Assembly (NCBI RefSeq): GCF_964063345.1
Contig: NZ_OZ061318.1
Location: forward strand, 186,001-250,000
Direction of reading: 5' to 3'
Origin: Pseudomonas lini
Lineage (GTDB): Bacteria > Pseudomonadota > Gammaproteobacteria > Pseudomonadales > Pseudomonadaceae
DNA length: 64,000 bases
Below, piece by piece: positions 32,988-34,760 of this stretch (its first letter is position 1; each line of letters starts with the position of its first letter). The position numbers and the translations under genes are program-made. The notes below the pieces were generated by a model, which worked only from the letters and a program-made list of their open reading frames with translations, did not search any database and was not told the DNA's origin.

Positions 32988-34001
32988 TCACGCCGACACG
33001 CGGCTCAATGCGGCGCGCTCGGCCACATGCCGCAAACTGTCGAAATTGATGTTTGCTCCAGAATCAATGGCCACCAGGGTCTGCCCCCGTGCACCGGTTT
33101 GCGCCACGTACTGCTTGATCCCGGCCACGGCCAGGGCGCCGGAAGGTTCGGTGATCGAGCGGGTATCGTCGTAGATGTTCTTGATGGCGGCGCAGAGTTC
33201 GTCGTTGCTGACAGTCATTACCTCATCGACGCAAAACCGGCAGACCTCGAAACCATGGGCGCCGATCTCAGCGACGGCCACGCCATCGGCGAAGGTACCG
33301 ACAGTTGGCAGCACAACCCGTTTGCCGGCCTGTAATGCAGCCTGCAAGCAGGCGGAATGTTCCGACTCGACGCCGATGATGCGGACTTCCGGGCGTAGGT
33401 ATTTGACGTACGCGGCAATCCCGGCGATCAAGCCACCTCCGCCCACCGGAACGAAGATCGCGTCCAGCGGCCCTTGGTGTTGGCGCAGGATTTCCATGGC
33501 GACGGTGCCCTGTCCGGCGATCACGTCCGGATCGTCGAAAGGCGAGACAAAGGTGCGACCGGTTTGCCGTGCCAGGCTCAGCGCGTACTCCAGGGCAAAC
33601 GGAAAACTCTCACCATGCAGCACCGCATCCGCTCCTCGGCTGCGAACCCCGTGCACCTTCAATTCCGGAGTCGTGCAGGGCATGACAATGGTTGCGGCGA
33701 TCCCGAGTTCGCGGGCCGCCAACGCTACGCCTTGGGCATGATTGCCCGCCGAGGCCGTGATCACACCACGGGCTTTCTGTTCATCGCTCAGGTTCACCAG
33801 TTTGTTGTAGGCGCCGCGGATCTTGAAGGAAAAGGTCGGTTGCAAGTCTTCGCGCTTGAGCAGGATCTGATTGCCCAATGTCTCGGACAAGGCTGGTGCC
33901 GCTTGCAATGGCGTGCGCACGGCAAGTTCATAAACCGGCGCGGCGAGGATCTTTTTTACGTAGTGCTCAAGCAAGCTCTGCTGGGCGGGGGTGCTGCTCA
34001 T
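32988..34001 (-). CDS. ilvA: Threonine dehydratase, catalytic domain only
   Basis: PLP-dependent enzyme of 337 residues that deaminates threonine to 2-oxobutanoate, first step to isoleucine. PLP Lys lies in TFSFKIRGAYNK (about 56-67); the phosphate-binding glycine loop is VGGGGLIAG (about 185-193). It ends SGANINFDSLRHVAER, which is IlvA-like rather than TdcB-like, and stops where full-length IlvA (about 500 residues) would continue into its ACT-like isoleucine-sensing domain. A good AGGAG precedes the ATG. The 150-nt leader upstream carries a leader-peptide attenuator, the likely means of control. Confidence 0.88.
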   Translation of the reverse strand: MSSTPAQQSLLEHYVKKILAAPVYELAVRTPLQAAPALSETLGNQILLKREDLQPTFSFKIRGAYNKLVNLSDEQKARGVITASAGNHAQGVALAARELGIAATIVMPCTTPELKVHGVRSRGADAVLHGESFPFALEYALSLARQTGRTFVSPFDDPDVIAGQGTVAMEILRQHQGPLDAIFVPVGGGGLIAGIAAYVKYLRPEVRIIGVESEHSACLQAALQAGKRVVLPTVGTFADGVAVAEIGAHGFEVCRFCVDEVMTVSNDELCAAIKNIYDDTRSITEPSGALAVAGIKQYVAQTGARGQTLVAIDSGANINFDSLRHVAERAALSRVSA

Positions 34002-34043
34002 GGTCGTCTCCTGACTTTGATCGGAGCCCAGGAGACAGAAAGT

Positions 34044-34067
34044 AAAAACCCGCCTCTAGGGCGGGTT
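34044..34067 (-). terminator. Attenuator terminator in the ilvA leader
   Basis: On the minus strand an 8-bp perfect stem aacccgcc / ggcgggtt with a 5-base loop runs directly into TTTTT. It lies between the leader ORF and the ilvA start. Its 5' arm (cccgcc) can instead pair with ggcggg in the last sense codons of the leader ORF (34090-34095), giving a mutually exclusive antiterminator. Confidence 0.8.
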
Positions 34068-34085
34068 GGGTGCTGCAGTCGTGAG

Positions 34086-34151
34086 CTAGCCCGCCAAATA
34101 AGGAATGGCGGTAATAATGCTTGGCTGGCAGCGCAATACGGTGGAAGTCAT
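34086..34151 (-). CDS. Leader peptide of the ilvA attenuator
   Basis: A 21-codon ORF, MTSTVLRCQPSIITAIPYLA plus Gly, with three Thr and three Ile codons, an Ile-Ile-Thr-Ala-Ile cluster at codons 12-16, ending TAG 84 bases before the ilvA start. There is no Shine-Dalgarno sequence; the promoter -10 (taattt) ends seven bases before the ATG, so the predicted transcript begins at about the A of the start codon and would be leaderless. Ribosome stalling at Ile codons would expose ggcggg for antitermination. Confidence 0.7.
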   Translation of the reverse strand: MTSTVLRCQPSIITAIPYLAG

Positions 34152-34157
34152 GGTTGG

Positions 34158-34186
34158 AAATTAGCCGGACGCTGATGGCAAGTCAA
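34158..34186 (-). promoter_or_regulatory. Sigma-70 promoter of ilvA
   Basis: Minus-strand ttgact (34186-34181), a 17-bp spacer and taattt (34163-34158), near-consensus in both boxes and optimal in spacing. The predicted start point is at 34151 or within one or two bases, at the leader-peptide ATG. Confidence 0.75.
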
Positions 34187-34249
34187 TGGCCAATTTTCAA
34201 GGGCCGCTGTAGGCTGGCGATTCTGCTCATTGTCCCAAGGAAGGAAACC

Positions 34250-34585
34250 ATGAAGTCTGTCGCCCTGCCCCTCATTGCCTTGATCGCTTTCGCCGGCTAC
34301 ACCGTTTCGGTGATGCTGCAGGCCGAGCAGTCGTTGCTCGACTTCGGCATCAGCCTGATGTCGCGGCCCGATACCGCGCAGGTGGTGATCGATTTGTACC
34401 TGTTGGCGACACTTGCCGGTATCTGGATGTACAAGGATGCGCGCAAGCGTGGGCAGTCGGGGTTGTCGGTGGTTCCCTATCTGTTGGTGACGGCGATTTT
34501 TGTGTCTGTCGGGCCGTTGTTGTATCTGGTGGTGCGAGGTCTTCAGGGGCGGAAAAACGCCGTCAGCGCAGCTCAAGAGGTCTGA
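34250..34585 (+). CDS. Small membrane protein, DUF2834-like
   Basis: A 111-residue protein with three membrane helices (about 4-22, 43-62, 74-96) separated by a basic loop (YKDARKRGQS). AAGGAA precedes the ATG at 34250. The VVIDLYLLATLAGIWMYKDA region resembles DUF2834 proteins, but the match is from memory and tentative. Divergent from ilvA. Confidence 0.6.
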   Translation: MKSVALPLIALIAFAGYTVSVMLQAEQSLLDFGISLMSRPDTAQVVIDLYLLATLAGIWMYKDARKRGQSGLSVVPYLLVTAIFVSVGPLLYLVVRGLQGRKNAVSAAQEV

Positions 34586-34625
34586 TCCGGAATTTGTGGG
34601 AATGCCGGCAAGTCAAGACGCAGAA

Positions 34626-34719
34626 CCTGTGGGAGCGTGGCTTGCCCGCGAAGAACGATGACGCGTAGTACCGGAAAAATCGCGGTGCATTCTTCGCGGG
34701 CAAGCCACGCTCCCACAGG
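34626..34719. repeat. REPIN between DUF2834-like gene and aldose dehydrogenase
   Basis: Arms 'cctgtgggagcgtggcttgc' and 'gcgggcaagccacgctccca' carrying the gtggc/gccac variant. It lies between two converging genes and probably acts as their shared 3' boundary. Confidence 0.87.
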
Positions 34720-34760
34720 ATTTTCGTTGCTCAAATTTCTTGATTCACCGTTGATGCGTA

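Follow-up and report, generated by a model that had tools for sequence, protein, structure and literature searches.

What lies between the promoter and the coding sequence of an ilvA-type threonine dehydratase gene in Pseudomonas lini, and how could it govern that gene? The window, the whole stretch of DNA analyzed here, comprises 64,000 nucleotides, and the gene lies on its minus strand. A first-pass annotation, made from the letters of the sequence, had read the region ahead of this gene as a leaderless leader peptide followed by an attenuator. Comparison within the Pseudomonadaceae supports that overall reading of attenuation ahead of a threonine dehydratase gene. In our judgment the element is very probably an isoleucine-responsive, ribosome-mediated transcription attenuator whose sensor peptide is leaderless or nearly so. 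The computations show that the ORF with its codons, the stems, and the distance to the promoter are conserved in the family, and which gene follows. The features of the locus, all on the minus strand, are as follows.

34181..34186, minus strand: -35 hexamer TTGACT (sequence re-read).
34158..34163, minus strand: -10 hexamer TAATTT, 17 bp past the -35 hexamer (sequence re-read).
34086..34151, minus strand: leader ORF MTSTVLRCQPSIITAIPYLAG with its stop codon, presumed leaderless; sensor codons Ile12-Ile13 (sequence and comparison).
34045..34121, minus strand: match to Rfam RF00624 (P9, Pseudomonas sRNA), 86.3 bits (covariance model, cut-off 43).
34106..34111, minus strand: segment 1, CCGCCA, 5' arm of the pause hairpin; pairs with segment 2, with compensatory changes in alignments A1 and A2.
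34090..34096, minus strand: segment 2, TGGCGGG, partner of segment 1 or segment 3.
34060..34067, minus strand: segment 3, AACCCGCC, 3' arm of the antiterminator or 5' arm of the terminator (terminator scan and alignments).
34047..34054, minus strand: segment 4, GGCGGGTT, 3' arm of the terminator, the T-run continuing to 34044 (terminator scan and alignment).
34005..34037, minus strand: hairpin burying the ilvA Shine-Dalgarno (SD) sequence (AGGAG, 34012-34008); fold of -15.5 kcal/mol.
32988..34001, minus strand: ilvA-type threonine dehydratase, 337 aa, catalytic domain only (TIGR01124 and Pfam PALP).

The region carries a catalogued RNA. RF00624 matched at full length (E of 3.6e-17 over the whole window) and was the sole Rfam family above its cut-off in the 64-kb window. 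Rfam types the family as a gene, "Pseudomonas sRNA P9," and its source is reportedly the 2006 work of Livny et al. The RF00624 model begins within the leader ORF, leaving out the promoter and start codon, and in its consensus Ile codons are followed by Thr, Ala, Ile, and a TAG stop. The catalogued P9 sRNA is the same element as the proposed ilvA attenuator, and "P9 sRNA" would be its terminated product. One paper counts P9 among the sRNAs of P. aeruginosa detected by Livny et al. (PMC2375449); such detection as a short RNA fits a terminated leader. None of the three matches up to an E of 1 in 33700-34500 was a T-box or riboswitch of Rfam 15, and Trp_leader was rejected as an identity at 19.6 bits versus a threshold of 41.

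Of 398 Pseudomonadaceae genomes, 208 (an upper bound) had a P9 match, which was above the cut-off in 197. A second search of 30 genomes, most of whose matches were weak, added 25 loci and dropped five (L264-L268) that read as plain terminators only. The 150 best-scoring P9 loci, including that of the window, were oriented and used for the comparisons below.

Re-reading of the leader agrees with the 21-codon ORF described in the first-pass annotation: it ends at TAG (34088-34086) and carries Ile-Ile-Thr-Ala-Ile at codons 12-16. All 150 best-scoring loci had an ATG that is linked to the promoter and shares the reading frame of the Ile block. Single-base codon changes between close leader pairs numbered 1,274, with 531 synonymous and 743 non-synonymous; the synonymous share was 42% versus 23% expected, in pairs that are not independent of one another. 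This excess of synonymous change suggests that the leader ORF is coding, its translation itself being predicted. Consecutive Ile codons (II) were present in 170 of 175 Pseudomonadaceae leaders and in 18 of 19 others. The 703 Ile codons of those leaders were mostly ATT (595, with 93 ATC and 15 ATA); the 77 Ile codons of five window genes comprised 61 ATC and 16 ATT. Six leaders (L121, L139, L180, L196, L206, and L215) shift frame after the Ile codons through a one-base gap in the loop of the pause hairpin and stop a few bases on at TGA, so that the tail peptide is not conserved, unlike the Ile block and the place of the stop.

The first-pass annotation had noted both Thr and Ile codons in the leader. 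Conservation upholds the Ile codons, but Thr is not the conserved codon. Threonine was likewise rejected as the signal: Thr is present in leaders, but leaders of the P-loop type, described below, have a conserved core of Ile only. The genes behind related leaders also point to isoleucine rather than threonine as the probable signal.

The minus strand reads, in order, TTGACT (34186-34181), a 17-bp spacer, TAATTT (34163-34158), the 6 nt ccaacc, and an ATG with its A at 34151. The promoter that had been proposed ahead of the ATG is thus seen again, and its spacing is kept in the family. The distance from TTGAC to the in-frame leader ATG was 35 to 38 nt in 149 of the 150 best-scoring Pseudomonadaceae P9 loci, the window included; for the remaining locus, L033, it was read as 31, and two TTGAC sequences are present there. 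The -10 strings of these 150 loci were of 18 kinds, with TAATTT in 60 and TAGTTT in 24, and the gap from -10 to ATG was read as 6 to 8 nt in 147. No SD-like 4-mer preceded the leader ATG in any of the 150, in line with the earlier claim that the leader lacks an SD sequence. A wider set of 194 leaders (175 from Pseudomonadaceae and 19 others, leaving out L295, which is without a leader) had TTGA 34 to 39 nt ahead of the start in 187 cases and an SD-like 4-mer in 7.

In 101 thinned upstream regions, conservation was limited to the two promoter hexamers and the bases adjoining the ATG; no column upstream of -40 exceeded 0.13 bits. C occupied position -1 in 82 of the 101, as expected for a pyrimidine-purine start at the ATG. 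An automatic sigma-70 scan found no promoters and did not pick up the leader promoter; TAATTT agrees with TATAAT at only three of six positions. The pattern TTGACN18-19TANNNTN6-8ATG occurred 6 times in this genome versus 5 times for the reversed control. Since the pattern is not enriched in a single genome, the leaderless claim draws on comparison, that is, on conservation of the spacing. Leaderless messages are generally considered rare in gammaproteobacteria. The words "leaderless" and "ilv" were both absent from the main texts of start-site papers on P. aeruginosa and P. syringae.

Downstream of the sensor codons, the terminator noted earlier was seen again as an 8-bp stem (34067-34047) with a 5-nt loop and a T-run. 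The terminator scan is weak by itself, with three terminator-like sites in that kilobase versus a shuffle mean of 1.4. The fold of 34002-34152, a stretch that takes in the ilvA SD hairpin, had a z score of -3.4, matched by 1 of 200 shuffles; together with the RF00624 match, this places the observation above chance. Pairing was followed in two alignments, A1 with 125 unique Pseudomonadaceae sequences and A2 with 60 sequences from several families. For hairpins 1:2 and 3:4 together, 94.7% of cells were paired in A1, with 7 two-sided cells, and 95.2% in A2, with 31 two-sided cells; none of 500 shuffles gave as many in either case. The 5 two-sided pairs of A2 for these hairpins were reached by 2 of 500 shuffles, and the number of further pair types by 34 of 500. 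Compensatory examples in A2 include CCGCCA:TGGCGG changed to CCACCA:TGGTGG in the pause hairpin and CCCGCC:GGCGGG changed to CCCACC:GGTGGG in the terminator.

GGCGGG (34095-34090) is able to pair with CCCGCC (34065-34060), the alternative pairing that had been pointed out from the sequence. This 2:3 core was fully paired in 57 of the 60 A2 rows; the other three (L262, L293, and L295) look out of register. Covariation of 2:3 by itself is weak, with 2 two-sided pairs reached in 124 of 500 shuffles, 5 two-sided cells in 5 of 500, and the score in 35 of 500. Its column pair 32-70 in A2 was CG in 35 rows, UG in 18, UA in 4, and other in 3. The classical attenuation geometry proposed at the outset is thereby retained, with pairings 1:2, 2:3, and 3:4 kept and compensatory changes present. 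Alignment for conserved codons and compensatory changes had been suggested as a check on the attenuator, and both were found in the Pseudomonadaceae.

The order of events was modeled with a ribosome placed on the leader. When the ribosome occupies the first conserved Ile codon, the 2:3 pairing precedes segment 4 in 173 of 175 Pseudomonadaceae loci, the two failures being L197 and the broken L257. With the ribosome at the stop codon, segment 2 is hidden in 174 of 175. The same models, applied to loci beyond the family, placed 2:3 before segment 4 in 36 of 37 and covered segment 2 in 34 of 37. Taken in isolation, the terminator has the lower free energy (-13.9 kcal/mol, versus -10.2 kcal/mol for the antiterminator), and once segment 4 is present, the lowest-energy fold contains the terminator even with the ribosome stalled. 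Because the terminator wins at that point, the switch has to work kinetically, as other attenuators do. L257 is a P9 copy with a broken terminator 3' arm.

We infer the start point, ribosome stalling, antitermination, and the isoleucine response as follows. RNA polymerase would start at the first base of the leader AUG or no more than about 2 bases away, and with a start at the AUG, the leader peptide would be translated without an SD sequence. A shortage of charged tRNA-Ile would make the ribosome stall at the Ile-Ile codons and mask segment 1, leaving segment 2 free. Free segment 2 would pair with segment 3 ahead of the synthesis of segment 4, the terminator would fail, and ilvA would be transcribed. 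When isoleucine is plentiful, the ribosome would reach the stop codon and mask segment 2, and the 3:4 terminator would end the transcript; P9 would be the short RNA that results. Without translation of the leader, 1:2 would form, and termination would be predicted here too.

The gene that the leader precedes is the threonine dehydratase gene that had been named from the sequence. Its product scored 500.2 bits on TIGR01124 (biosynthetic threonine ammonia-lyase; cut-off 411.3), covering positions 2 to 320 of 499; since coverage ends at 320, the C-terminal regulatory part is missing. The same genome has a second, full-length ilvA (about 507 aa, 73% identity), at which neither P9 nor a related leader was found. 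IlvA also follows the leader in nearly all family loci read. A downstream ORF was present in 145 of the 150 best-scoring loci, and the other 5 ran off the contig. A script assigned these 145 to 75 short IlvA, 42 long IlvA, 16 IlvA with an end outside the sequence, 8 with DUF4440 first, and 4 others. By eye, three of the last group (L201, L221, and L238) begin like IlvA, and in L023 the wrong frame had been chosen over ilvA. Both the short and the long IlvA forms thus occur under P9 among relatives. An SD sequence lay ahead of 140 of the 145 downstream genes, a count that is partly circular because the choice of start favored an SD.

The four DUF4440 loci that were checked (L030, L198, L222, and L237) encode a DUF4440/SnoaL-like protein overlapping ilvA. 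In L258, L327, L328, L330, and L390, DUF4440 comes first and no ilvA is visible next. Twenty P9-negative genomes of the genus Pseudomonas were examined, out of 190 negatives in the Pseudomonadaceae, and each had one IlvA match under 1e-100, at 71 to 75% identity; no clear leader was found at these 20 ilvA loci with model R1 (described below; best E of 0.36). As these genomes have a single IlvA at that identity and no clear leader, the leader appears to go with the ilvA copy under study.

Between terminator and gene lies the hairpin whose 3' arm holds the ilvA SD sequence; most Pseudomonadaceae loci conserve it. Pairing of the SD with the upstream region had a mean z of -2.7 versus shuffles, with 90% below -1 (84 thinned loci), and a paired change separates locus groups (GTCTCC...GGAGAC versus GACTCC...GGAGTC). 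The hairpin is absent in some loci (L258 and L291). Segment 4 pairs with the region of its 5' arm with a mean z of -2.4 in 15 loci of other families. As a general switch this pairing was rejected, being weak in Pseudomonadaceae (mean z of -1.0, 69 loci). In L129, L148, and L216, a palindromic repeat is inserted between the hairpin arms, both of which are kept.

Three other accounts of the locus were weighed. P9 might be an independent trans-acting sRNA gene that merely adjoins ilvA. Its filing by Rfam as a gene, "Pseudomonas sRNA P9," and its place among the sRNAs detected in P. aeruginosa (PMC2375449) agree with such a gene, and the terminated Sinorhizobium leader rnTrpL acts in trans according to PMC7298713. 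Attenuation would equally yield a detectable short RNA, however, and the P9 RNA contains an ORF with conserved Ile codons and a conserved stop position. In addition, nearly all of the family loci that could be read have P9 ahead of ilvA, and no P9 was found in the 20 examined genomes without this ilvA copy. An independent sRNA gene is in our view highly improbable. Control at the level of translation, with the SD hairpin as the switch and the terminator secondary, would account for the conservation of that hairpin, for its paired change from GTCTCC:GGAGAC to GACTCC:GGAGTC between groups, and for the ability of segment 4 to pair near its 5' arm, best in other families (z of -2.4, 15 loci). At -15.5 kcal/mol, however, the window hairpin would form with or without the terminator, so that no switch is evident, and L258 and L291 are among the loci that lack it; we consider this account distinctly unlikely, if less so than the preceding one.

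The third account is a variant compatible with the attenuator that we favor, in which the message begins a few bases before the ATG and has a very short 5' untranslated region without an SD. A -10-to-ATG gap of 6 to 8 nt, as read in 147 of the 150 best-scoring loci, permits starts 0 to 2 nt before the A. The C at -1, directly 5' of the A in 82 of 101 thinned loci, speaks for a start at the A itself, and this variant seems rather unlikely, the most plausible of the three all the same.

Related leaders extend beyond the Pseudomonadaceae. Models R1, built from P9, and R2, which is broader, matched 43 and 56 of 390 genomes of the order, and 20 of 369 genomes of the class were matched; many of the weak matches are plain terminators. 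An Ile-rich leader with segments was recognized by eye at 37 loci in 35 genomes (32 in the order and 5 in other orders of the class). This set leaves out L333-L336, L338, L340-L345, and L347, plus some weaker matches from the order. Matches judged by eye to be non-leaders were L294, L331, L332, L337, L339, L384, L387, L389, and L391-L396, and L378 is degenerate.

The genes behind the 37 leaders encode 20 P-loop proteins, 9 IlvA, 2 citramalate-synthase-like (CimA-like) proteins, 2 isoleucyl-tRNA synthetases (IleRS), 3 DUF4440 proteins, and 1 GNAT protein; as far as is known, 24 of these 37 targets (P-loop, DUF4440, and GNAT) neither make nor charge isoleucine. Of the nine IlvA, L382 scored above NCBIfam cut-offs, L277 and the fragment in L293 scored below, and the others were named from their first residues. 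The two IleRS ORFs, both cut by the locus end, scored 788 and 773 bits on TIGR00392 (cut-off 621.4), and their leaders are weak model matches. The two CimA-like proteins are so named from their best match, which stayed under the cut-off (NF042433, 613.8 versus 950 bits for L292, cut by the locus end, and 276.9 for a fragment in L297). A GNAT match to an IleRS-GNAT model was set aside as too weak for use (63 versus 1,999 bits). The P-loop loci are L278-L282, L284-L291, L296, L298, L329, L374, L375, L377, and L381; their leaders mostly end in, for example, RIIIIP or RIIIIIP and have the same promoter spacing. The P-loop protein, of about 174 aa, is uncharacterized: "DNA topology modulation" models gave 79 bits versus a cut-off of 215, and sequence search among solved structures gave no usable relative. 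We know of no link between this protein and isoleucine.

TTGA lay 33 to 39 nt ahead of the start codon in 29 of these 37 loci, and an SD-like 4-mer was present in 7. The eight loci without the spacing are seven of the nine IlvA loci and one DUF4440 locus. Promoter spacing is thus kept in the P-loop, IleRS, and CimA-like loci and mostly not in the distant IlvA loci; together with the SD-like 4-mers, this indicates that leaderlessness is not universal. A wider proposal, which we put forward tentatively as possible but a little short of probable, is that these mostly leaderless isoleucine attenuators form a regulon beyond ilvA that takes in CimA-like, IleRS, DUF4440, and P-loop genes. The DUF4440 and P-loop proteins would then have an unrecognized part in supplying isoleucine or in charging tRNA-Ile. 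ATT, which the window genes use less than ATC, would have been chosen at the sensor site to sharpen stalling.

Ribosome-mediated attenuators of enteric bacteria control the trp, his, thr, and ilvGMEDA operons. The Pseudomonas element shares with them an abundance of the regulatory amino acid in the leader peptide, pairings 1:2, 2:3, and 3:4 that overlap, and an intrinsic terminator. Unlike them, it has no SD, an apparent start at the AUG, and ilvA as its first gene, and it matches no Rfam amino-acid leader family above threshold. Polycysteine leaderless ORFs of mycobacteria, reportedly described by Canestrari et al. in 2020, are said to be likewise leaderless short ORFs acting as amino-acid-responsive attenuators; they differ in sensing cysteine and in belonging to Actinobacteria. 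In Sinorhizobium meliloti, the trpL attenuator RNA (rnTrpL, encoding peTrpL) starts with the ATG of the leader ORF and its terminated leader is known as an sRNA (PMC7298713). The Pseudomonas element shares both traits, the start at the ATG being predicted here; the S. meliloti system differs in sensing tryptophan, in its alphaproteobacterial host, and in the trans functions reported in that source. Leaderless attenuators are thus already known elsewhere, and the Pseudomonas element would be a widely conserved new case. In the literature accessible to our search, we found no paper describing this attenuator, and the main text of a terminator survey (PMC2965389) mentions none of ilvA, isoleucine, and threonine. 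If the reading is correct, a catalogued, unexplained Pseudomonas small RNA gains a testable mechanism, a gammaproteobacterial family has throughout retained a leaderless start for a sensor peptide, and proteins of unknown function gain isoleucine-linked hypotheses.

Two further observations were made by eye. L010, L012, L017, L185, and L186 carry, between the terminator and ilvA, another short ORF preceded by an SD of its own; the TGA stop of this ORF overlaps an ATG at the start of ilvA. The window itself has an apparent REP-type element at 34620-34730, in which GTGGGAGCGTGGCTTGCCCGCGAAGAA and its complement form a long inverted repeat.
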